Below are positions 1,930 through 53,516 of a stretch of DNA of 55,991 nucleotides, one piece after another; position 1 is the stretch's first letter; every line of letters begins with the position of its first letter. The DNA comes from Longimicrobiales bacterium (GTDB lineage Bacteria > Gemmatimonadota > Gemmatimonadetes > Longimicrobiales > RSA9). Made by a program: the position numbers and the translations under genes. The DNA lies in the NCBI GenBank assembly GCA_035764935.1, contig DASTYK010000099.1, positions 1-55,991 on the forward strand, in the 5' to 3' direction. Under the pieces are notes generated by a model, which was not told the DNA's origin, made no database searches, and worked only from the letters and a program-made list of their open reading frames with translations.

Positions 1930-4900
1930 TCAATGGAAATCCCGCGACCGGTAATTCACCTTCTCCACCTGCGGCCGGTAGTTCACCGTCTCACGCTGCG
2001 GCCTGTGCACACGCAGCTCGCGGAACCGCCGCCCGACGATGCTGACTGCACGATCCTCGCGCTCGAGCCGCCCCTCGATCAGCAGGAACGGCGCGTGGCG
2101 GACGACTTCCCGGTTCGCTGCATACAGATCACGTGAGACGATTACGTTCAGAAAACCGAACTCATCCTCGAGCAGCACGAATACCGTGCCCTTGGCAGTG
2201 GACGGATGCTGGCGTGCGACGACCAGCCCGCCGACACACACCCGCCCGCCGTCCGGCACCCCGTCCAGCTCCGCACTGGAGCACACGCCCGCCTCGTGCA
2301 GCCGCGCGCGCAGGTGCTGCATCGGGTGGCCGTTCGTGCTGATGCCGGTCGCGAGATAATCGAGGAAGATCATCTCCGCGCCTTCCAGCTCGCGCGGCTC
2401 GAAAGGCAGCACGCGCGCGGGCGCCAGCGGCAGCAGGTCGCCTGCCACCCGCAGCGCCTCCCACGCCGCACGCCGACGGCCGGGCTCGAACGCCTCGAAC
2501 GCGCCGGCGCGCGCCAGGTGCAGCGCGTCCGCCCGGGAAAGTGAGGCACGCCGCACGACGTCCGCAATCGATTCGAACGGGCCGTCCTGGTGGGCTCGCT
2601 GGAGGGCGTTTCTGGTTTTTTCGCCCAGGCCACGGATATGGCGCCAGCCTATGCGCAGGGCTGGCTGTTTTTCTACCACGGAGAGCACGGAGGACACAGA
2701 GTCGCTTTCGGTATCGTTCTGCGACTCCGCACGTTCATTAACGGCATTTACCGCATCGCTCTGCGACTCCGCACGTTCATTAACGGCATTCACCGCTGAG
2801 AGCGCAGAGGACGCTGAGGATTGTCGCTGAGAAGCTTCTGCAGTGCTGATTGAGTCGTCTGCCGCTGAGCTCCGGCCACCATTCAGAACAGGATTTGTAG
2901 CTGCTTCATCCTCTGCCGCAGGTCCGCGGCCATTGTATAGAACATTGTTTGTGGTTGCTTCGTCGCCGAAGTCGTGCGGCCGGCGAGAAACATCACTGTT
3001 CGTATCTGTTGAGTCTCTGTGAGCACTGTGTTCTCTGTGGTTGAAAGCTGTTCCGCTCTCCGCGTGCAGTTCTCCGCGCTCTCTGCGCTCTCCGCGGTGA
3101 AACTGCTGTTCTCCGGAAGCAGTCTGCCCATCAGACTCCAGCTCGATCGTGCAATCCCACTCGCCGTGCGCGAGGCACGGTGGCCGTACGATGACACCGT
3201 GGCGCATGGCGTCGTGGACGAGCGTGGCCGGCGGGTAGAAGCCCATGGGCCAGGCGTTCAGCATGCCGAGGTAGAACTCCGTTGGAAAGTTGGCCTTGAG
3301 CCAGGCCGTCGCATACGCGATCAGCGCGAAGCTCCACGCGTGCGACTCGGGGAAACCGTAGTTCGCGAAGGAGACCAGGTCGTGCGTGATCTGCTCGGCG
3401 ACCTGCTCATCGATGTCGCGCGCGACGATCGCACGCTTCAGCTTTTCCAGCGCGGCCTGCAGCTTCGGGAGCTTGCGGTGGTGACCCATCGTCCGGCGCA
3501 GCTCGTCCGCTTCGCTGGCGCTGTAGCCGCCGAGCGCCATGGAGATGGCCATGGCCTGCTCCTGGAAGATCGGCACGCCGTAGGTGCGGCGCAGGATTGG
3601 CTCCAGCAGCGGGTGCGCGTAGCTGACGTCCTCCCTGCCGCGGCGTCGCTCCGTGTACGGATGGACGAAACGCGCCTGGATCGGGCCGGGGCGGATGAGC
3701 GCGACCTGCACGACGATGTCGTAGAGTCGCTCGGGTTTCGTGTGCAGGATCGACTGGATCTGTGCGCGGCTCTCGATCTGGAACGTGCCGACCGTGTCAC
3801 CGGCACTGATCATCTCGTACGTCTTTCTGTCGTCGACCGGCAGCCGGTACATCTCCATCTTCTCGCCCGTGCGCTTCTCGATCGCGTCGAAGGCGAGGTG
3901 GACGGCGGAAAGGCCGCCGAGCCCGAGGAAGTCGAACTTGGGAACGCCGGCGGCGTCGAGGTCGTCCTTGTCGAACTGCAGGATCGTCCGACCCATCGAC
4001 GTGTGCTCGATCGGCAGGTACGCGCCGAGTGGATCGGACGAGAGGACGAAGCCGCCGGGATGCGTCGAGCGCATGCGGGGGACGTCGTCGAGGGATTGCA
4101 GTGACGAGAGCAATGCGCGGCCGCGCGGATCGTCCAGCTCGAGGCCGTACTCCTTTGCCATGCCGCCCTTCAGCTCCTCCGCGAGCTGCGACGGCTCCCA
4201 GTGGTGCGAGCGCTTCGACAGCGTGAACGCGAGGTCGGCCGGATAGCCGAGCGCGCGCATCATGTCCTGCAGCGCGGTCGGTGCATGGTAGAGCTGCGTG
4301 ACCGCCGTGATCGCCGAGTGCGCGCGGCGGTAGCGGTCGTACATGTAATCGAGCACCTCCTCGCGACGGTGCATCTCGAAATCGACGTCGATGTCCGGTG
4401 CTTCCGTGCCGCCGTCCGTGCGCACTTCCGAGAGGAAGCGCTCGAAGAGCAGACCGTGTCGCACCGGATCGACCGCCGTGATGCCGAGGCAGTACGCGAC
4501 CGCGCTGTTCGCGGCGCTGCCGCGCCCCTGGCAGAGGATGCCGCGCGAGCGCGCGAAACGCACTGCGTCCCACATCACGAGGAAGAAGCCCGCAAAGCCG
4601 AGACTGCGGATCACCCGTAACTCGTGCTCGAGCTGCGCGCGCTGCCGCTCGTCCGGCTCGCCCCACCGCTCGCGTGCACCCGCCCACGCACACTGCGCGA
4701 GGAACGAGTCGTCGTCGTGGCCGGCTGGAACGTCGAAATGCGGAAGCGGCGGCCGCAGCCAGCGCAGATCGAACGCGGCACAGTCGGCGGCGATGTCGCA
4801 GGAGAAGCGAAGGCCGGCTTCCCTGCCCTTCCACAGCGACGCCATCTCGCGCGGCGACTTGAGCCGCCACTCGCCGTTCGGCAGCAGCAGCCCCCACGAC

Positions 4901-5733
4901 GCCGCGGTGTTCACGCACACGTCCGCGCGGTTCGCGGTCAGCAGGTCGTGAACCAGACGGCCGCCGTTGTCCAGATAGCGCGGATCGTTCGACACGACCC
5001 ACGGCAGCCGCTGCCGCTCCGCCAGCTCGATCAGTGCATTCGCGAGCGCCGACTCGCGACCCGAGACGTGATGGAGCTGCACCTCGATCGTGAGACGGTC
5101 GGCAAAGACATCGCGCCAGCGCTCGAGCAGGAACATCGCTTCCGACGTACGCTCACTCCCCACGTACGTCGCCACCTCGCCCGATGCGGGACCGGTCATG
5201 CACCACAGGCCGTCCGCGCACTCGGCCACGTCCTCGAAGGTGAGCTCCGGCCGGCCGCGATCGGGCAGCGGCGTCGCATAGCGCTTCACCAGGTCGTGAC
5301 CGCGGCGATCGACTGCCGGGCGCGCACTCGTGTGGTGCAGCACCGGCTGTTCTGGGGAGTGCAGAACGTTGCGCCCGCCATGCGACGTCCCGTCCGCAGC
5401 ACCAGCCGCCTCCTCGCCATCCCGCAGCCGCCACGACTCGACCCGGCCGATGCGCGCGCGCGTGACCAGCCTGGCGAGGTTGCGGTAGCCGCGCTCGTTG
5501 CGCGCAAGGAAAGCCGTCGGATACCCGTCCACCTTCAATTCCGCGCCAACGACCGGCTTGATGCCCTGCGCGTTCGCCTCCAGCGTGAACCGGATGATCC
5601 CGCCCAGGTCCGACGTGTCCGTCAGGCCGAGAGCGCCGTAGCCGAGCTCGGCCGCCCGCGAGACCAGCTGCTCGGGGCTGCTCGTTCCGTCGCCGAAGGA
5701 GTAGGCACTGTGGGCTCGGAGCTCTGCGTACAT
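1930..5733 (-). CDS. dnaE2: Error-prone DNA polymerase III alpha subunit DnaE2 with a large internal insert
   Basis: C-family polymerase for translesion and SOS mutagenesis, normally working with ImuA and ImuB. The protein starts with MYAELRAHSAYSFGDG, a PHP domain with degenerate metal motifs as usual in DnaE2. The polymerase metal site PDIDVDFE lies near residue 445, followed by palm/thumb segments, a helix-hairpin-helix, an OB fold and the typical C-terminus ending RDFH. I chose ATG 5733 because PHP begins there; the open frame to 5898 adds unconserved sequence over a likely operator. At about 1267 residues it is 150-200 longer than usual DnaE2. The excess is mainly an insert at about residues 865-1020 (bases 2671-3140), built from dispersed repeats and richer in A/T than its flanks, with a smaller extra loop near bases 5270-5410. 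The insert stays in frame, so the gene is probably intact. Confidence 0.93.
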   Translation of the reverse strand: MYAELRAHSAYSFGDGTSSPEQLVSRAAELGYGALGLTDTSDLGGIIRFTLEANAQGIKPVVGAELKVDGYPTAFLARNERGYRNLARLVTRARIGRVESWRLRDGEEAAGAADGTSHGGRNVLHSPEQPVLHHTSARPAVDRRGHDLVKRYATPLPDRGRPELTFEDVAECADGLWCMTGPASGEVATYVGSERTSEAMFLLERWRDVFADRLTIEVQLHHVSGRESALANALIELAERQRLPWVVSNDPRYLDNGGRLVHDLLTANRADVCVNTAASWGLLLPNGEWRLKSPREMASLWKGREAGLRFSCDIAADCAAFDLRWLRPPLPHFDVPAGHDDDSFLAQCAWAGARERWGEPDERQRAQLEHELRVIRSLGFAGFFLVMWDAVRFARSRGILCQGRGSAANSAVAYCLGITAVDPVRHGLLFERFLSEVRTDGGTEAPDIDVDFEMHRREEVLDYMYDRYRRAHSAITAVTQLYHAPTALQDMMRALGYPADLAFTLSKRSHHWEPSQLAEELKGGMAKEYGLELDDPRGRALLSSLQSLDDVPRMRSTHPGGFVLSSDPLGAYLPIEHTSMGRTILQFDKDDLDAAGVPKFDFLGLGGLSAVHLAFDAIEKRTGEKMEMYRLPVDDRKTYEMISAGDTVGTFQIESRAQIQSILHTKPERLYDIVVQVALIRPGPIQARFVHPYTERRRGREDVSYAHPLLEPILRRTYGVPIFQEQAMAISMALGGYSASEADELRRTMGHHRKLPKLQAALEKLKRAIVARDIDEQVAEQITHDLVSFANYGFPESHAWSFALIAYATAWLKANFPTEFYLGMLNAWPMGFYPPATLVHDAMRHGVIVRPPCLAHGEWDCTIELESDGQTASGEQQFHRGERRERGELHAESGTAFNHREHSAHRDSTDTNSDVSRRPHDFGDEATTNNVLYNGRGPAAEDEAATNPVLNGGRSSAADDSISTAEASQRQSSASSALSAVNAVNERAESQSDAVNAVNERAESQNDTESDSVSSVLSVVEKQPALRIGWRHIRGLGEKTRNALQRAHQDGPFESIADVVRRASLSRADALHLARAGAFEAFEPGRRRAAWEALRVAGDLLPLAPARVLPFEPRELEGAEMIFLDYLATGISTNGHPMQHLRARLHEAGVCSSAELDGVPDGGRVCVGGLVVARQHPSTAKGTVFVLLEDEFGFLNVIVSRDLYAANREVVRHAPFLLIEGRLEREDRAVSIVGRRFRELRVHRPQRETVNYRPQVEKVNYRSRDFH
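2671..3140. repeat. Repeat-derived insert inside dnaE2
   Basis: This in-frame segment contains several blocks of the accca/gaggac-type dispersed repeat: ACCACGGAGAGCACGGAGG near 2677, CACCGCTGAGAGCGCAGAGG near 2791, and reverse-orientation blocks near 3017-3105 (CTCTGTGAGCAC, CTCCGCGGTGAA). It also holds a direct duplication of about 42 bases at roughly 2719-2800 (the CTGCGACTCCGCACG pair) and a looser duplication at about 2883-2965. Related blocks occur between genes at 15673-15715 and 30261-30668. No DnaE2 motif falls inside it. Confidence 0.75.
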
Positions 5734-5798
5734 CGGGTTCCTGCGGTCGAAGGGCCGGGCGGCCGCCTGGCAGGTGCGGCTCGCTTCGGGAGCATACC

Positions 5799-5813
5799 GA
5801 ACAAATCCCGAAC
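5799..5813 (-). promoter_or_regulatory. SOS-box-like direct repeat upstream of dnaE2
   Basis: Read on the minus strand this is GTTC-GGGATTT-GTTC, an exact GTTC-N7-GTTC direct repeat ending 66 bases before the dnaE2 start. That is the LexA operator form known from Alphaproteobacteria. A near-identical arrangement precedes imuA, the functional partner. LexA binding here is inferred, because no lexA gene is in the window. Confidence 0.55.
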
Positions 5814-5954
5814 CTGCAACGGGCTGCGGCCGGCAAGGGACGAACGTCGTTCTCCTGTCTGCGCTCCGCGCTTGCGCGCGGCGTGCATCGTATACCAACT
5901 TGTCGACAGCTTGCCCGCTGACATTGCCGATACGTCCGCTGCCCAGGACCCATC

Positions 5955-7919
5955 ATGAAAACCGCGATCCCATTCGGCCTGGCGCTCCTCCTGTCCGCCG
6001 GCCCTGCCGCCGCGCAGCAGCCGCGCCTCGAGGTCGGCCAGACTGCAAACGCCACGGTGTCGCCGAGCGACACCGTCCGCTACGCGCTCGACCTGCCGGC
6101 CGGTCATTTCGTTGCCGGACGCGTCGAGCAGACTGGAGCCGATGCCACCGTGACGGTTACGAGCCCGGGCGGTGAGCGTGTGCTGCGTGCCGCACGTGTA
6201 GGTCGCGGCGGCCCGGAGGCGTTCGCGTTCGCTACGGACTCGGCCGGTCGCTACGTGATCGAGGTCGCTCCCGGGGACTCCGCTGCGAGCGGCGCGGTGA
6301 AGGTGCGCCTCACGCGATCCGAGCCGGTCGCGACGACGCCGGAGGGCAAGGTGGACCAGGCGGCGGCGTTCCTGTACGAGGACACGCCGGGCGCCGTCGT
6401 CGGCGTGATCCGGGATGGCGAGCTGGCGTTCGTGAAGGGGTACGGCGCTGCCGACCTCACGTACGGCATGCCGTTCACGCCGGAAACGCCGACCAACATC
6501 GGCTCCACGTCGAAGCAGTTCACCGGCTTCGCGCTGGCGGTGCTCGAGTCGCGCGGCGCGCTGTCGCTGGACGACGACGTGCGCCAGCACATCCCGGAGC
6601 TGCCGGACTTCGGCACGAAGATCACGCTGCGTCATCTCCTGACGCACACGACCGGGTACCGCGAGTTCATCAACACGCTGATCATCGCAGGCCGGCAGGT
6701 GCTGGAGGGCGACTACATCGGTCCCGACGAAGTGATCCGGGTGATCCAGAATCAGCCGGAACTGCAGAACGAGCCCGGCACGGAGTTCAACTACAACAAC
6801 TCGGCGTTCAGCCTGGCGACGATCGTGGTGGAGCGCGTCACCGGCCGTCCGTTCGCGGAGTGGATGCGCGACGAGGTGTTCCTGCCGCTCGGCATGACGA
6901 GCACGCGCGTGCGCGCGAATCCGGGACAGATCATTCCCGGCCGCTCGATCGGCTACATCCCCGGCGAGGGTGGCTTCCGCGAGGTGCGCGACCTGCACGG
7001 TTCGGCTGGCGCGGGCGGCATCTACACGACGCCGGGCGATGTCGCGAAGTGGATGGGCAACTTCCGTACGGCGAAGCTCGGAGGGCCGGAGGTGATCCGG
7101 AAGCTGACGACGTCGTACGTGCTCGAGAGTGGAGACTCGACGAACTACGGCCTGGGCCTGTTCGTCGGCACGGACCGCGGGCTGCGCCGCTGGCAGCACG
7201 GCGGCAACGACATCGCGCACAGCTCCACGTTTGTTTACTACCCGGATCTGAATGCGGGTTACGTCGTGTTCAGCAACTACCAGGGCGTTCCGGGCAGGAT
7301 CGCGTCCGTGGTGGCGGACGCGTTCTTCGGCGAGCACATGACGGAGGCCGAGCGTCCGACGGCAGCATCCAGCGTGGACGTGCCCGTTGCGACGCTGCGT
7401 CGTTACGCCGGCAAGTACGAGATGACGACACTGGGCGGCATGCTCGTCACGGTCGAGCTGGAGGACGGCGAGCTGCGCGTGGAATTGCCCGGCCAGCCGC
7501 CGCTGCCGCTGCAGGCGACGTCCACGACATCGTTCCAGGTCGTGGGTGCACCCGCGCAGATCTCGTTCGAGACGGCGGACGACGGCACCGTGGAAGGGAT
7601 CGTGTTCCACCAGGACGGCGAACATCCGGGCCGGCCCGTCGCCGCGGCCACGCCGCCCGACTTCGCCGCCTATGAAGGTCGCTACTTCAGCGAGGAGCTG
7701 GAGACGTTCTACGACCTGGTCGTGGAGGACGGAAAGCTCGTGATCCGCCACCGGCGCTTCGGTCCGGCACCGCTGACCTGGACGGAGGGGGACAGTTTCT
7801 CGGGCACGATGCCGGTTTCGCAGGTGGTCTTCCAGCGCGATGCGCAGGGCAACATCACCGGCTTCCTGGCAGGCAACGGGAGAGCGCGCGACATCCTGTT
7901 CGAGAAGGTCGGGCAGTAG
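5955..7919 (+). CDS. Secreted serine hydrolase, class C beta-lactamase fold
   Basis: A 654-residue protein with a Sec signal peptide (about residues 1-22, cleavage after AAAQQ). A beta-rich N-terminal domain (about 25-120) is followed by a beta-lactamase/penicillin-binding-protein-like catalytic domain. The SxxK nucleophile motif is STSK (S184, K187), the second motif is YNN (Y280), and the HGG triad is near residue 415. Two repeated C-terminal lobes, each opening with a YAGKYE/YEGRYFS-type segment (near 480 and 570), resemble the DUF3471-type tails of such hydrolases. These enzymes range from esterases to D-amino-acid peptidases, so the substrate is unknown. It is transcribed away from dnaE2 and ends before a hairpin at 8037. 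The ATG is preceded by AGGA. Confidence 0.9.
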   Translation: MKTAIPFGLALLLSAGPAAAQQPRLEVGQTANATVSPSDTVRYALDLPAGHFVAGRVEQTGADATVTVTSPGGERVLRAARVGRGGPEAFAFATDSAGRYVIEVAPGDSAASGAVKVRLTRSEPVATTPEGKVDQAAAFLYEDTPGAVVGVIRDGELAFVKGYGAADLTYGMPFTPETPTNIGSTSKQFTGFALAVLESRGALSLDDDVRQHIPELPDFGTKITLRHLLTHTTGYREFINTLIIAGRQVLEGDYIGPDEVIRVIQNQPELQNEPGTEFNYNNSAFSLATIVVERVTGRPFAEWMRDEVFLPLGMTSTRVRANPGQIIPGRSIGYIPGEGGFREVRDLHGSAGAGGIYTTPGDVAKWMGNFRTAKLGGPEVIRKLTTSYVLESGDSTNYGLGLFVGTDRGLRRWQHGGNDIAHSSTFVYYPDLNAGYVVFSNYQGVPGRIASVVADAFFGEHMTEAERPTAASSVDVPVATLRRYAGKYEMTTLGGMLVTVELEDGELRVELPGQPPLPLQATSTTSFQVVGAPAQISFETADDGTVEGIVFHQDGEHPGRPVAAATPPDFAAYEGRYFSEELETFYDLVVEDGKLVIRHRRFGPAPLTWTEGDSFSGTMPVSQVVFQRDAQGNITGFLAGNGRARDILFEKVGQ

Positions 7920-8036
7920 CGAGGAAACGAACAGGCGGCGCGCCCGCACGCGGATACGCGCGGGAGTCGATTCCAACGCCGAACGTCAGCGGCTCCTTGC
8001 GCTGCGCGGACCTTTCCCATCAAATGAGATGAGACT

Positions 8037-8076
8037 GCGGCCGGTCGCACTCCACGTGCACCGGCCGCTCGTTTTT
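8037..8076 (+). terminator. Rho-independent terminator
   Basis: Perfect 9-bp stem GCGGCCGGT/ACCGGCCGC with a 14-base loop, then a T-run (TTTTT at 8072-8076). It lies after the serine hydrolase and just before the ribosome site of the aldehyde dehydrogenase, so it separates the two transcripts. Confidence 0.75.
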
Positions 8077-8096
8077 CGAACAGTGAGGCAGTGACG

Positions 8097-9500
8097 ATGG
8101 CAACGGCCACGATCAACCCCGCCACGGGTGAAACCCTCGAGACCTTCGACGAGCTGAGCGACGCCGGCGTCGAGCGCGTACTCGAGCGCGCATGGCGGAC
8201 GTTCCTGTCCTACCGCGAAACCAGCTTCGCCGACCGTGCGACGTGGATGCACGCCGCCGCGGACATCCTCGAGCGCGAGAAGGAACAGTGGGGCGAGCTG
8301 ATCACGACGGAGATGGGCAAGCTGCGCTCGGCCGCGATCGGCGAGGTCGAGAAGTGCGCGTGGGTGTGCCGGTTCTATGCGGACAACGCGGAGCGTTTTC
8401 TCGCGGACCGCATCGTCGAGACGGACGCGGAAGCCAGCTATGTTAAGTATCAGCCCCTCGGCCCCGTGCTCGCGGTCATGCCCTGGAACTTCCCGTTCTG
8501 GCAGGTCTTCCGCTTCGCCGCGCCGGGGCTGATGGCCGGCAACGTCGGGCTGCTCAAGCACGCGTCCAATGTGCCGCGCTGTGCGCGCGCGATCCAGGAG
8601 ATCTTCGAGCGCGCCGGCTTCCCGGAAGGCGCGTTCCAGAGCCTGGTCATCGGCTCGAGCCGTGTTGCCGCGGTCATCGATGACGATCGCGTGCGTGCGG
8701 TCACGCTCACCGGCAGTGAAGGCGCCGGCAGCAGCGTGGCGGAGCGCGCGGGCAAGCGGCTCAAGAAGGCCGTGCTGGAGCTGGGCGGCAGTGACCCGTT
8801 CATCGTCATGCCGAGCGCCGACCTGGAGCGCGCCGTCGCGACTGCGGTCAAGGCGCGAACGGTGAACAACGGCCAGTCCTGCATCGCGGCGAAGCGATTC
8901 ATCGTCCACCGTGACATCGCCGACGAGTTCACCCAGCAATTCGTCCGCGCGATGGAATCGCTGCGCGTCGGGGATCCGATGGATGCGGACACGGAGATCG
9001 GCCCGCTTGCAACGCCAGCCATCCGCGACGAGCTGCACGAGCAGGTGCAGCAGACCGTGCGTGCCGGCGCACGCGTGCTGACTGGTGGCGAACCGCTGGA
9101 CGGCAACGGCAACTACTATCCGCCGACCGTGCTGGTCGACGTTCCCGAGAACTCACAAGCCTGGCGCGACGAGCTGTTCGGGCCGGTTGCATCGGTGTTC
9201 GTCGTGCGCGACGTCGACGACGCGCTGCGCGTCGCGAACGCGACCAGGTTCGGGCTCGGCAGTGCGGCGTGGACGCAGGATCCCGACGAGCAGCTGCGCT
9301 TCATCGAAGGCATCGAGGCGGGCGCCGTGTTCATCAACGGCATGGTCGCATCCGATCCGCGCCTGCCGTTCGGCGGTGTGAAGGCGTCGGGCTTCGGGCG
9401 CGAGCTGGGCGAGCACGGGATCCACGAGTTCGTGAACATCAAGACCGTGGTCGTGAATCCTGCGCAGCAGTCGAAGGGGAAGACGGCCGCGCCGGAGTAG
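8097..9500 (+). CDS. NAD(P)-dependent aldehyde dehydrogenase, succinate-semialdehyde type
   Basis: A 467-residue aldehyde dehydrogenase superfamily enzyme oxidising an aldehyde to the acid. The catalytic cysteine is in NNGQSCIAAKR (C262), the general base is in LELGGSDPF (E228), and the nucleotide-binding motif is TGSEGAGSSVAE. The PWNFPFWQ segment and the C-terminal PFGGVKASGFGRELG are typical. Overall it looks most like the succinate-semialdehyde dehydrogenase branch (GabD/Sad), but substrate is not proven. A GTG at 8091 is in frame, but GAGG at 8085-8088 is ideally placed for the ATG at 8097. It converges on imuB and sits between dnaE2 and imuAB. Confidence 0.92.
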   Translation: MATATINPATGETLETFDELSDAGVERVLERAWRTFLSYRETSFADRATWMHAAADILEREKEQWGELITTEMGKLRSAAIGEVEKCAWVCRFYADNAERFLADRIVETDAEASYVKYQPLGPVLAVMPWNFPFWQVFRFAAPGLMAGNVGLLKHASNVPRCARAIQEIFERAGFPEGAFQSLVIGSSRVAAVIDDDRVRAVTLTGSEGAGSSVAERAGKRLKKAVLELGGSDPFIVMPSADLERAVATAVKARTVNNGQSCIAAKRFIVHRDIADEFTQQFVRAMESLRVGDPMDADTEIGPLATPAIRDELHEQVQQTVRAGARVLTGGEPLDGNGNYYPPTVLVDVPENSQAWRDELFGPVASVFVVRDVDDALRVANATRFGLGSAAWTQDPDEQLRFIEGIEAGAVFINGMVASDPRLPFGGVKASGFGRELGEHGIHEFVNIKTVVVNPAQQSKGKTAAPE

Positions 9501-9589
9501 GGGCGGACGCCGGCCCAGGAATCCCGGGACGATCTGTTCGCCGGGCGCCTCTTCGATCGCGTCGGCCGTCCGGCAGAGTTCGTTGATGG

Positions 9590-10969
9590 TCAGTCCCACC
9601 AGCCGTGCAGGTACCACTGCGCCTGCACGGCGTCGCGGAAGATCCAGAGCAGCAGTCCATCCTCCGTCACGACCCGAAAGTACTCGCGCGCGTAGCTGCG
9701 ATCCCACTGCCCGCCCGACAGCCGGTCCGGCCCCGCTACGTCCATGATGCGCTTCCACGCGCCGTCATGACAACGCACTGGTGCCTCGTGATCGCGACGT
9801 CGTACGGTTTCCACTTCGATCGGCTTCGGCTTCGCGAGAAGCTGCAGCGTGAGCTGGTCGGGCCGGCCGTCGAATGCGTCCGTCGCGATCGCATCCGCAT
9901 TGCGTGGCGCGCTGACGCGCGAGGAGCCTGCAGCTGCGTCGCGTGCTGCAGGCGACGTCGCACGCGAGCGTACCGCGTCGCTTTCCTTCACTCTCCGCTC
10001 CGCCACCGCCGCGAGCGGCACCGGCTCCAGGACGGTGCGCTTTTCCGCCAGCGGGTGCGCGTTTGCATCCGGCTCGTATACGACGCCGCCGATGCTCTCC
10101 AGCAGGCGCGCGACAGCGGCCTCGACCGCCGCGGCGGTTGCGAAGCCGGCGTCGAAGAGATCACCCTGCACCGCCCGCGCGGGCTCGGTCGCGCCTACCT
10201 CGAGCGCGATGCCCGCGATCGAGTCGGGTACCGTCAGCTTCTCGAGCAGAGAGCGCACCAGCCGCAGCCATGCACTCCGGCTCGCGGTCGGTCGCGCCGC
10301 GCGCAACGTGCGACGCCACTCGCTCCCGTTCGCCAGCGACAGCGTGAGCAGCAGCGCACGCGCGTGCAGCCCGCGCGCGACCAGCTCGTCGCACAGCCGG
10401 CCGAGCAGCGCGTTCACCGTGAACGCGAGCCGCTCCGGGTCGCTGACCACGTAATCGACGAAGTCGAGCGATGCACGCGCACGTTCGGGCACCGGCGCGC
10501 CGAAGAGCATGCGGTCATCTTCCGCACGCGCGCGTCGCCAGAGCTCCACCGCCTCCGCGCCGAAGCGCACTTCGACCGCTTCGCGTGCGAGCGCGGCGAG
10601 GTCGCCACACGTCTCGATGCCGACGCCGAAGAGCAGCGTGCGCAGTCGCTCCTCCGGTTCGAGCACGTCGATCGGCTGACCCGCGATGAACGATGCCTCC
10701 TCGCCGGATGCAATGACACGCACGTCGTCGCCCGAGCCCGCTGCAACCCATGCAACGATCGGCACGACGGACACACCGCAGCCCACTGCGACCTCGATGC
10801 GCTCACACGCCGCGCGTGCAACCACGGCGGCATCGAGCCCGCGCGCATCCAGCCACACGCAATCGTCCGCATCCACCGCGACGCGCGGCGCCACGGCGAG
10901 GAGGACCTCGGCGGCGCCCTCGGCCCAGCCGGCCGGCGCTTCGTCCCTGCGTCGCAGACAGACGATCAT
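9590..10969 (-). CDS. imuB: ImuB-like non-catalytic Y-family polymerase protein
   Basis: A 459-residue member of the DNA-polymerase Y family in its ImuB form: a non-catalytic adaptor thought to link DnaE2 to the sliding clamp during induced mutagenesis. The N-terminus lacks the aspartate and DE catalytic acids of DinB. A helix-hairpin-helix region near residue 100 (LLFGVGIETCGDLAALA) and a little-finger-like part follow. QGDLF, a plausible beta-clamp motif, lies just after the finger region. The C-terminal 60 residues (WDRSYAREYFRVVTEDG to YLHGWWD) match the DUF6504 domain common at ImuB ends. Its ATG overlaps the imuA stop in an ATGA, so the two are translationally coupled. Confidence 0.85.
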   Translation of the reverse strand: MIVCLRRRDEAPAGWAEGAAEVLLAVAPRVAVDADDCVWLDARGLDAAVVARAACERIEVAVGCGVSVVPIVAWVAAGSGDDVRVIASGEEASFIAGQPIDVLEPEERLRTLLFGVGIETCGDLAALAREAVEVRFGAEAVELWRRARAEDDRMLFGAPVPERARASLDFVDYVVSDPERLAFTVNALLGRLCDELVARGLHARALLLTLSLANGSEWRRTLRAARPTASRSAWLRLVRSLLEKLTVPDSIAGIALEVGATEPARAVQGDLFDAGFATAAAVEAAVARLLESIGGVVYEPDANAHPLAEKRTVLEPVPLAAVAERRVKESDAVRSRATSPAARDAAAGSSRVSAPRNADAIATDAFDGRPDQLTLQLLAKPKPIEVETVRRRDHEAPVRCHDGAWKRIMDVAGPDRLSGGQWDRSYAREYFRVVTEDGLLLWIFRDAVQAQWYLHGWWD

Positions 10970-11823
10970 GCTTCACGCACGCGACGCTGCACGTCGCCCT
11001 CGCGGTTGAGGTTCGATTGCTCGTCGTGGGCAGGACGCGCGGTCGTGCTCGCATCCATTGCCGCACGACGTCGGGCGGCCAGCTCCGCCATGCGCTTCGC
11101 ATACGCACGCCGCCACGCCGTTCGCCGGTCCGTGACGCCGCGGCGGTCGACGAGCAGGTCGTCCACGCCGCTGCGCGGCGCATGCGTCCATACGGGCAGA
11201 TCGAACGACGTCGCACCGCTCCAGCCGAGTGCACGCGCCTCCAGTCGCAGGCGCACACTCACCAGCTCGCCCGGACCGCCGAACGGATCGCGCCGCCAGC
11301 GCAGACCACCCTCCTCGATCCGGCACCCGACACGCAGTGCAGCTACTTCGGCGGCATCGCCCACGAGCACGAGACCGCTGCCACCCGCCTTCGCCGCGCG
11401 CGAAAGCCTCACGCTGCAGCGCGCACCATGGCGGCCAAGCCCCGTCACGACGACCAGGCCGAAGCCACCGCTCTGCAGCAGCTCCTCCGCACACGCCAGC
11501 GCCTCGACCTCGCCGTTCGGCCGCAACAGCAGCGGACCGCGCGTCCAGCCGTCCGCCGTCACCGTGTGCGCACCATCGATCCACGCCGCGCGTTCACCAC
11601 GCGCGATCACCGCACTGCACGTGGAACGCAGCACCGCACTCGAACCGCCACCCGGCGCCCACGACGTGAGCCGGCCACGCGGCAGCCCCGAACCGGGCAG
11701 CAGCGCGTCCACCGCGCCGATGCCAGTGGGCACGGACGATGGGGTCGCCGCATGGTGCAGCGGCAGCGCGTCGGGAAAGCGCTGCTCGATCGCCTGGCGG
11801 AGTGCGGTCAGTGGGGAGGCCAT
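10966..11823 (-). CDS. imuA: ImuA-like RecA-fold protein
   Basis: A 285-residue protein in the position and general form of ImuA, a RecA/SulA-related partner in the ImuA-ImuB-DnaE2 mutasome. The N-terminus (ALRQAIEQRFPDALPLHH, then a segment giving TGIGAVDALLPGSGLPRGRL) is the usual ImuA opening. The P-loop position reads APGGGSSAVLRS and lacks the Walker lysine, so ATP use is doubtful. The C-terminal 50 residues are basic and unconserved. The open frame continues upstream through repeats to 12594, but the ATG at 11823 matches the family start and is preceded by a promoter-like, SOS-box-like region. It overlaps imuB by four bases. Confidence 0.8.
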   Translation of the reverse strand: MASPLTALRQAIEQRFPDALPLHHAATPSSVPTGIGAVDALLPGSGLPRGRLTSWAPGGGSSAVLRSTCSAVIARGERAAWIDGAHTVTADGWTRGPLLLRPNGEVEALACAEELLQSGGFGLVVVTGLGRHGARCSVRLSRAAKAGGSGLVLVGDAAEVAALRVGCRIEEGGLRWRRDPFGGPGELVSVRLRLEARALGWSGATSFDLPVWTHAPRSGVDDLLVDRRGVTDRRTAWRRAYAKRMAELAARRRAAMDASTTARPAHDEQSNLNREGDVQRRVREA

Positions 11824-11838
11824 GAACCGAATATAAAC
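11824..11838 (-). promoter_or_regulatory. SOS-box-like direct repeat at the imuA start
   Basis: On the minus strand this reads GTTT-ATATTCG-GTTC, one mismatch from GTTC-N7-GTTC, with the second half touching the imuA ATG. A protein bound here would cover the start region. The exact version lies upstream of dnaE2 at 5799-5813. Confidence 0.5.
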
Positions 11839-11998
11839 CGAAATGGCGGGGCGGACGAGGGTTCGTTGAAGGCGGGCCGGGGCCCCGGGCCAGGGCCTGG
11901 GCCAGGAACTGCCGGTAGTTCGCAGGGGATCGCGGGACGCCGGAGCTTTGTCGGATCGCGGACCCTGGACCTTTGGACTTCTTGGGAACCGCGGAATC

Positions 11999-12096
11999 GC
12001 TGAACCGCTGAACCGCTGAACCGCTGAACCGCTGAACCGCTGAACCGCTGAACCCCTGAACCCCTGAACCGCTGAACCGCTGAACCGCTGAACCCC
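11999..12096. repeat. Octamer tandem array, about 12 copies
   Basis: About 98 bases of the 8-mer GCTGAACC in tandem, with two or three units reading CCTGAACC. It lies about 175-275 bases upstream of imuA. A GC-rich block (GGCGGGCCGGGGCCC) lies between the array and the gene. A related octamer array with the same GC-rich block is at 53444-53516. Confidence 0.95.
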
Positions 12097-12250
12097 CTGA
12101 AACCTTTGCCGTGGACCGGCGGACCGGACCGCGCACCGGCGACCTCGAGGACGAGTTCGAGGCGAGGCCACTATGGCCTCAACCCCGGAGCCAGAACCGT
12201 GGATGGCCCCACCCTGGAGCCTGAGTTCCCTGGCGAGCAAGGCGCCACCC

Positions 12251-12386
12251 GTGCGCCGCCACGGATAACAACCTCTGCGACTCCCCGGCGCTTTAGCGGT
12301 CCCGGTGACCGCTCCGCCGCCAAGGATATGCGGCCGATCCGAGAAGAGTGGCGGCAAATCGGTGTTGCCGACCATCCCGACGCCAC
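12251..12386 (-). repeat. 136-bp inverted repeat, copy A
   Basis: The reverse complement of this segment aligns without gaps to 13886-14021. Shared stretches include TGCCGCCA near one end, GGCGG(C/A)GAGCGGT in the middle and CCGTGGCGGCGCAC at the far end. By eye identity is about 70 percent. The two copies face each other across the DUF559-type gene. Confidence 0.8.
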
Positions 12387-12692
12387 GCATCGGCTGGGCA
12401 CGCCATCCTTGGCGCCGCACCGGTTGAGAGCCTCCTTCAAGCCCGTCGCACCCGGGCTGGTGAAGCCGCAACGGCACCCGTGCCGGTCGCCTGGCCCAGC
12501 TCGAGGTGCCGGACCTACGCCCCCGACCGGCCCGCCGCCACGCATCGGCTGGGCACGCCATCCTTGGCGCCGCACCGGTTGAAGCCTCCTTCAAGCCCGT
12601 CGCACCCGGGGCTGGTGAAGCCGCAACGGCACCCGTGCCGGTCGCCTGGCCCAGCTCGCGGTGCCGGACCTACGTCCCCGACCTTCCCGGCG
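12383..12692. repeat. 155-bp tandem duplication
   Basis: Two head-to-tail copies starting at CCACGCATCGGCTGGGCACG (12383 and 12538). They are nearly identical over about 146 bases, differing by a 2-base indel, one extra G and a few substitutions, which suggests recent duplication. It overlaps the end of inverted repeat copy A and runs into the 37-bp array. Confidence 0.9.
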
Positions 12693-12843
12693 CCACCGGT
12701 GCCGACCTGCGCCCCCGACCTTCCCGGCGCCACCGTGCCGACCTGCGTCCCCGACCTTCCCGGCGCCAACGGTGCCGACCTGCGTCCCCGACCTTCCCGG
12801 CGCCAACGGTGCCGGACTACGTCCCCGACCTTCCCAGCGCCAG
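12657..12843. repeat. 37-bp tandem array, five units
   Basis: Five adjacent 36-38 base units containing CCCCGACCTTCCC(G/A)GCGCCA, with no spacers between them, so this is not a CRISPR array. The last unit contains the final codons and TAG stop of the DUF559-type gene, which suggests the array grew from the 3' end of that gene. Confidence 0.9.
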
Positions 12844-13716
12844 GGCCACCTTCACCAGCGTAGCCTGCGAGCGCGTGGTCAGGTCGGTCCAGGTGAAGCG
12901 CAGCACGCGGATACCGGCTGCTCCCAGGCTGCTGTCACGGCGACGATCGCGCTGCTGCGCAGCGGGCGTAGCGTGGTAGGCGAACCCGTCGATCTCCACC
13001 GCGACCGCATGCGAACGCCAATAGAAGTCGATCTCGAATCCATGGACACGCACGTTGACCTGCGGCACTGGGAGTTCGCCGCTCCGGATCAGCGCAAGGA
13101 AACGCTCTTCGGCCTCCGAGCGTGTCATTGCCGGCTGCTGCTCAGCGGCGAGGATCGCGCGCAGCCTCGGCGCTCCTGCTCGACGCGGGTAGCGTGCGAT
13201 GATGCGCCGCAGCTCCAGCTCCGTCACTCTGCCAAGCCGAAGGCCACGCGCCATTGCCTGTTCCAAACTGCGATTCTGGAGCACGGCAGCCAGATCGAGA
13301 ATGGTGCGGGCAACGGATGTGACAGGCACACCGTCGCAGACTGTGCGTTCATCAGCAGGTAGTTGCACGCGGTGCAGCTCCACGCCGTCACGCCGAGCGG
13401 GGTGGCCGCGCCACGTGCTCACGACAACTGGCGTTGTGATGTCCACCAGCAGGTCGTGGAGACGTCCGGCGGTCTGGTGGCTTCCGACGGCGTGCGGCCC
13501 GAAGCCGTAGACGCTGGCGAGCACGTCGCGATGCGGACCGTCGAGTCCCGGCACGCGATATACGCAGTGCCCGACCCGCACCAGTCTCCCGCTCTTGACC
13601 CGTTCGTCGATCAGCGTGCGAGGCACACCGGATGACACGAGTTGCCAGCGTGTAACGACGCCGTGCTGCGCCTGGCCGAGCGCGAGAATCCGTTCATCTG
13701 CATGGAGCGAGCGCAT
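12817..13716 (-). CDS. AbiEi-like winged-helix plus DUF559 nuclease-fold protein
   Basis: A 299-residue two-part protein. The N-terminal 60 residues (HGVVTRWQLVSSGVPRTLIDERV, then LVRVGHCVYRVPG) resemble the winged-helix domain of AbiEi-type antitoxins. The C-terminal part (about 205-295) has the DUF559/very-short-patch-like PD-(D/E)xK pattern: EIDFYW, then AVEIDGFAYH, then RVLRFTWTDL. Such fusions are common in Actinobacteria and related lineages, usually as solitary genes of unknown role. No AbiEii-type toxin gene is beside it, so a toxin-antitoxin role is unsupported. The last eight codons lie inside a 37-bp tandem repeat, and inverted 136-bp repeats flank the gene, which suggests a mobile or rearranged island. 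Confidence 0.8.
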   Translation of the reverse strand: MRSLHADERILALGQAQHGVVTRWQLVSSGVPRTLIDERVKSGRLVRVGHCVYRVPGLDGPHRDVLASVYGFGPHAVGSHQTAGRLHDLLVDITTPVVVSTWRGHPARRDGVELHRVQLPADERTVCDGVPVTSVARTILDLAAVLQNRSLEQAMARGLRLGRVTELELRRIIARYPRRAGAPRLRAILAAEQQPAMTRSEAEERFLALIRSGELPVPQVNVRVHGFEIDFYWRSHAVAVEIDGFAYHATPAAQQRDRRRDSSLGAAGIRVLRFTWTDLTTRSQATLVKVALALGRSGT

Positions 13717-14123
13717 GCACCATGATCAACGGCGAACGTGTGCGTGAGTATGGCTCGACGGGTCGGGCATGGGCATGTCGGCCGGCATGGAGTTCGGCGG
13801 AAACCCAGCGTCGCAGTGACGCTGCAGCCCGCACGCAGAGAGCATTCACCGATGCGTCGCCAGGAACGCGGTGCATGGGAGATCCGTGGCGGGTAAACGG
13901 TTGCCAGACCCGATCTGCCGCCATTCATCCCGACCGGCCGCCCGATACCTGGCGGCAGAGCGGTGGCGAGGACCGTTGGCACGCCAAACAGTCGCAGAAG
14001 TTCTGTTCCGTGGCGGCGCACCGGGATGTCAGGGGCCAGTCCGTACGGCCGCCCTCGGCCTTGGCACGATGCCGCGTCTACGCACTGCCGCAATCGCCGC
14101 AGACCTCTACGGGCAGCTGCCGG
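13717..14123. other. Intergenic region with inverted repeat copy B
   Basis: About 400 bases between two divergent genes. Apart from the 136-bp repeat copy I see no convincing gene. The plus-strand frame through the repeat gives a peptide resembling that from copy A (shared CRHSS and LAAER), which reflects the DNA similarity and is not evidence of a protein. Confidence 0.55.
13886..14021 (+). repeat. 136-bp inverted repeat, copy B
   Basis: Ungapped counterpart of 12251-12386 in opposite orientation, ending GTGGCGGCGCAC at 14010-14021. The pair brackets the DUF559-type gene at a distance of about 1.5 kb. Confidence 0.8.
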
Positions 14124-53443: not shown

Positions 53444-53516
53444 GAACAGCGGAACAGCGGAACAGCGGAACAGCGGAACAGCGGAACAGCGGAACAGCGG
53501 AACAGCGGGCGCGAAA
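53444..53516. repeat. Octamer tandem array, about nine copies
   Basis: Tandem GGAACAGC units, 95-170 bases upstream of the cytochrome c gene. As with the imuA array, a GC-rich block (GGCGGGCCGGGGCCC at about 53410) lies between the array and the gene. On the minus strand the units read GTTCCGCT here and GTTCAGCG at the imuA array. Confidence 0.95.

Follow-up and report, generated by a model that had tools for sequence, protein, structure and literature searches.

The nuclease-like gene of the window (the whole stretch of DNA analysed here, 55,991 nucleotides of a Longimicrobiales bacterium) belongs to a widespread family in which an AbiEi domain is fused to a homing-endonuclease-like domain, each member accompanied by its own private palindromic element. 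Bracketing of these genes by matching repeats is not accidental, as the actinobacterial members show, and the two 136-bp inverted repeats around the window gene are palindromic modules of this kind and not conserved transposon ends. By analogy with REP elements and their RAYT transposases, the data are best explained by a REP/RAYT-like mechanism in which the AbiEi-nuclease fusion would be the enzyme, a reading to which we give a probability of roughly 55%.

The bracketed gene and its inverted repeats in the window

A sequence-only reading of the window had described 136-bp segments that align in opposite orientation on either side of one gene, an arrangement said to resemble a transposable or invertible cassette. 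Both the repeats and the bracketing were confirmed. Segments 12251-12386 and 13886-14021 aligned ungapped in opposite orientation with 92/136 identities (68%), and the gapped local score of the pair was 92, compared with at most 34 when dinucleotide blocks were shuffled 200 times. The alignment was lengthened by blastn to 12248-12424 and 13848-14024 (70% identity, E=1.5e-13). A single ORF lies between the arms, with the left arm on its 3' side and the right arm on its 5' side. Each arm is itself palindromic and consists of three blocks about 62 nt apart (right arm, 62 nt; left arm, ~62-63 nt); the DNA hairpin z score of the right-arm segment 13886-14021 was -3.2. The 136-bp inverted repeats represent one palindromic element in two copies that have diverged. 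The gap between the left arm and the gene is filled by tandem arrays with 155-bp and 37-bp units. The features of the region are as follows.

11986-12094, no strand: 8-bp minisatellite GAACCGCT, 13.6 copies, beyond the left arm (tandem-repeat detection)
12248-12424, plus strand: left arm, the module's inverted downstream copy, with block centres near 12272, 12335 and 12397
12368-12696, no strand: 155-bp direct duplication, which contains the left arm's last palindromic block (period 155, 2.1 copies, 94%)
12659-12842, no strand: 37-bp tandem array of 5 copies, overlapping the gene's 3' end (tandem-repeat detection)
12817-13716, minus strand: nuclease gene, 299 aa, AbiEi-like fold (residues ~1-190) and Vsr/EDxHD homing-endonuclease-like domain (~195-291) (Pfam, PADLOC, AlphaFold, Foldseek)
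13848-14024, minus strand: right arm, the palindromic module on the upstream side, with block centres near 13998, 13936 and 13874

More 136-bp copies, for which the sequence-only reading had proposed a search of the genome, were not found: at E<=0.001 the whole assembly, a fragmented one and the single assembly of one strain, contained just these two, leaving the window's own palindromic module without dispersed copies. The exact GTTTCCGGC hairpin was ruled out as a dispersed repeat of this genome, being present in one place only. No known RNA family was found at the window, and the other loci gave just RNase P and one tRNA.

The 299-aa protein matched AbiEi_4, MTES_1575 and DUF559 in Pfam and the AbiEi models of PADLOC. 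Its AlphaFold model had a pLDDT of 92.3 and a pTM of 0.74. In Foldseek searches with this model, the first ~190 residues resembled the AbiEi antitoxin of S. agalactiae (6y8q, E=1.3e-6, TM-score by target 0.65), and the C terminus resembled the catalytic domain of the homing endonuclease I-Bth0305I (3r3p, E=6.7e-4), with 3hrl and Vsr (1vsr) among the lower-ranked matches. A profile search agreed with the fold (3hrl, 9.8e-8; 3r3p, 8.9e-5), and residues D230, E241, D243 and H248 of the nuclease half were conserved in alignments. The protein is thus predicted to be an AbiEi fold fused to a homing-endonuclease-like nuclease fold, and the nuclease-like cargo of the sequence-only reading was borne out by a predicted C-terminal domain of the I-Bth0305I type.

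The window neighbours that we tested were an ORF without a Pfam match in the ImuA position, a Y-family polymerase, a DnaE-like protein, a TetR protein and an alpha/beta hydrolase; neither an AbiEii (DUF1814) toxin gene nor a site-specific recombinase was among them. The nuclease gene is adjoined at 1930-11826 (minus strand) by two polymerase-like genes, one for a DnaE-like alpha subunit and the other resembling Y-family polymerases, with the Pfam-less ORF between them, a layout similar to the imuA-imuB-dnaE2 mutagenesis cassette.

Family loci in Gemmatimonadota

The window gene has five paralogues on other contigs (39-59% identity). Repeat density was high around all six family copies relative to 128 control gene flanks (p=4e-5), an effect that shrank when intergenic length was matched (p=0.017 for G000 gaps of at least 400 nt) and was not significant in the complete Gemmatimonadota chromosome G032. 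The repeats around the family copies of the window genome were private to each locus. Related palindromic units of ~61 nt form an orphan array on C87 of the same genome, with further matches on C122, C72, C76, C148, C184, C172 and C13.

When 36 Gemmatimonadota family loci were compared, the inverted-repeat score of 92 was unique to the window (the next was 37; controls were at most 57), and therefore the 136-bp repeats are not transposon-like ends conserved in the family. A search for one motif common to all loci also failed, as 7-9-mer enrichment gave only weak, composition-like words, and TTTCCGGC, a lead for a shared motif, was limited to a few loci. Three-block palindromic modules were seen in several loci when flanks were read by eye. 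Upstream regions of 800 nt from 37 Gemmatimonadota family genes were scanned for palindrome triplets with periods of 45-80 nt, and a peak appeared at 60-62 nt; compared with 224 controls, triplet scores were higher upstream (p=0.002) and not higher downstream, in a scan that was exploratory because some of the same loci had been read beforehand. The window arms, with blocks ~62-63 nt apart, fit this layout. In the orthologous pair L023/L024 the module was 96.5% identical, compared with 60% and 69% for the adjacent non-coding sequence and 94.4% for the gene. A single strong palindrome within 250 nt of the gene was not significantly enriched in the G000/G032/G075 set, with p=0.12 on the upstream and p=0.15 on the downstream side, unlike in actinobacteria.

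Matching palindromes, solo copies and site turnover

The association of gene and palindrome was much clearer in a comparison set of 48-49 family loci (L141-L191), mostly from Gordonia, Mycobacterium and other actinobacteria and with one Acidobacteriota record. Matching sequence on both flanks (score at least 36) was found for 34/48 family genes, compared with 1/467 control genes (Fisher 9e-41); the matched flanks were mostly palindromes, and their copies were direct in 21 cases and inverted in 12. Palindromes exceeded those of control genes both upstream (p=2e-16) and downstream (p=5e-11), and they matched within a locus far better than across loci (p=1e-8), though kinship within a genus means that some of these p-values overstate independence. 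Palindrome similarity followed protein identity, even across differing genomic contexts (rho 0.38; the pairs are non-independent). Among Thermoleophilia members, matched flanks were found in 1/15. We regard the gene-palindrome association in actinobacteria as very probably real.

A GGAAC-N15-18-CGTC motif was present near the start of 36/49 family genes, compared with 3/523 controls; from known consensus forms we take it to be a putative ECF-sigma promoter. Its closeness to the start codon in most L141-L191 genes suggests an ECF-sigma regulon with short or leaderless transcripts.

The palindromes were also found away from the gene. Solo copies of the Gordonia palindromes lie at other places of these genomes too, and the control pattern, read backwards, gave 0 matches. 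The G032 chromosome carries, at ~40 places, a near-palindrome of ~187 nt with sharp ends, single or in tandem, and one copy abuts a family gene; L050:8517-10125 is among these places. The ~187-nt element was absent from three congeners. For an empty-site comparison of a G032 module, congeners were too diverged. Compensatory changes were looked for in this element and did not hold up, since the element varied little and only 2/65 pairs showed them. The sequence-only reading had named a common element scattered without association with the gene as what would speak against it; what we found is an element with a link to the gene, even though some genomes have it scattered.

We compared one intergenic site between convergent genes in 13 Gordonia genomes. 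The cassette was in the plus orientation in namibiensis, alkanivorans and lacunae, in the minus orientation in amicalis, oryzae, otitidis and aichiensis, cut down to a fragment in jacobaea, and absent from ABSL49_1, tangerina, OPL2 and sputi; in rhizosphera an unrelated solo palindrome occupied its place. For the convergent gene beyond the site, direct reading covered five of the 13 genomes, namely namibiensis, oryzae, amicalis, OPL2 and rhizosphera. Sites without the cassette had no matching palindrome. The cassettes were ~70% identical and their flanks ~80%. The opposite orientations can mean either inversion or independent insertion. A second Gordonia site had one palindrome type in one species, another type in two, and none in the others. 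At the left cassette edge of G. aichiensis (L272), two tandem palindromes lie ~62 nt apart, the same period as in Gemmatimonadota. The notion of a transposable or invertible cassette thus stands in part: the bracketing is real and, at one Gordonia site, the unit occurs in either orientation or is missing, but the repeats themselves are palindromic modules instead of transposon ends.

A proposed REP-like mechanism and its alternatives

REP/BIME elements are dispersed short extragenic palindromes that are paired with RAYT (Y1 HUH) transposases, whose genes are bracketed by the cognate palindromes in a private pairing. The family described here shares the bracketing of one gene by cognate palindromes, the private pairing of gene and palindrome type and, in Gordonia and G032, the extragenic dispersal, though dispersal was not found for the window's own module. 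It differs in its enzyme, a fusion of AbiEi with a Vsr-like homing nuclease that gave no HUH transposase match in profiles or fold, and in its palindromes, which are longer or form three-block modules with a ~61-nt period. Other known systems share some of these features. The AbiE type IV toxin-antitoxin systems (AbiEi of S. agalactiae, Rv2827c of M. tuberculosis) have the AbiEi fold and inverted repeats near the gene, but here no AbiEii-type toxin was among the tested window neighbours, a nuclease domain is fused to the AbiEi fold, and the palindromes lie on both sides of the gene and are dispersed. I-Bth0305I (EDxHD) and Vsr share the C-terminal nuclease fold, whereas our gene is outside any intron or intein, fused to AbiEi and bracketed by palindromes. 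The G032 element resembles a MITE with its parent in its size, sharp ends, terminal inverted repeats and copy number, but no transposase was found for it. An invertible cassette would explain both orientations at the same Gordonia site, but no recombinase was among the tested window neighbours.

In the mechanism we propose, the AbiEi half would recognise the private palindrome and perhaps also repress the promoter of its own gene, the nuclease half would cut or nick at or near the palindrome, and repair would place a copy at other intergenic sites, either of the palindrome alone or of the whole cassette with its bracketing palindromes. Because AbiEi and Rv2827c bind inverted repeats (PMC7319586), binding of the palindrome by the AbiEi half is likely by analogy.

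It could be argued that the palindromes are operators only, bound by a protein that represses itself as AbiEi and Rv2827c do, and that nothing moves. The target of AbiEi is two 23-bp inverted repeats, and that of Rv2827c is two repeat pairs with a 13-bp gap inside the pair and 4 bp between pairs (PMC7319586), a geometry of ~63 nt per pair that is near the 60-62-nt period seen here, and in most actinobacterial loci read, the upstream palindrome sits just before the GGAAC-N15-18-CGTC motif. Some of the palindromes may indeed serve as operators. In Gordonia, however, the palindrome lies outside the promoter motif and not over it, and the operator role leaves unexplained the matching copy past the stop codon, the solo copies across the genome, and the changes of presence and orientation at one Gordonia site, so that as a full account we consider it unlikely. 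The downstream copies, the solo copies and the site turnover exceed what an operator does, and they resemble REP/RAYT with a different enzyme.

Less likely still, the palindromes would be ordinary terminators or generic REP-like elements spread by another enzyme, among which the nuclease gene landed or into which it homes. Many solo copies do sit between two convergent genes, at their 3' ends, where terminators also occur, and related species carry different palindromes at the same site. Against this, no T run was evident after the copies that were read by eye, the two copies that flank one gene resemble one another but not the flanking copies of other genes, palindrome sequence follows protein identity, and matched flanks are rare around control genes. 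For the arms of the window, an inverted duplication that arose locally by chance, among the many minisatellites of this intergenic region and unlinked to the gene, would suit the two copies in the genome, the abundant tandem arrays and the lack of such gene-flanking inverted repeats at other Gemmatimonadota loci, but it is improbable given that both arms retain the three-block layout at ~70% identity, as upstream of other family genes, and that all six family copies in the genome have unusually repeat-dense flanks.

The REP/RAYT-like reading can be extended, tentatively and at somewhat less than even odds, to the whole family: fusions that now carry the label of orphan antitoxin or DUF559 protein, in actinobacteria as in Gemmatimonadota, would be the enzymes that spread private REP-like palindromes, with a period of ~61 nt in tandem forms and, in Mycobacteriales, control by the ECF-sigma-like GGAAC-N15-18-CGTC promoter. 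Our literature search returned no paper joining DUF559 with AbiEi or with an inverted repeat, which does not prove that no such report exists. If the extended reading is true, a common family of orphan-AbiEi/DUF559 genes supplies the enzyme for a system that spreads repeats, dispersed palindromes of Actinobacteria and Gemmatimonadota gain a cognate gene, and the origin of REP-like elements does not require an enzyme related to Y1 transposases.

The GAACCGCT minisatellite beyond the left arm is probably incidental. Another 8-bp minisatellite, similar in style, lies at 53444-53508 of the window and consists of eight copies of GAACAGCG.
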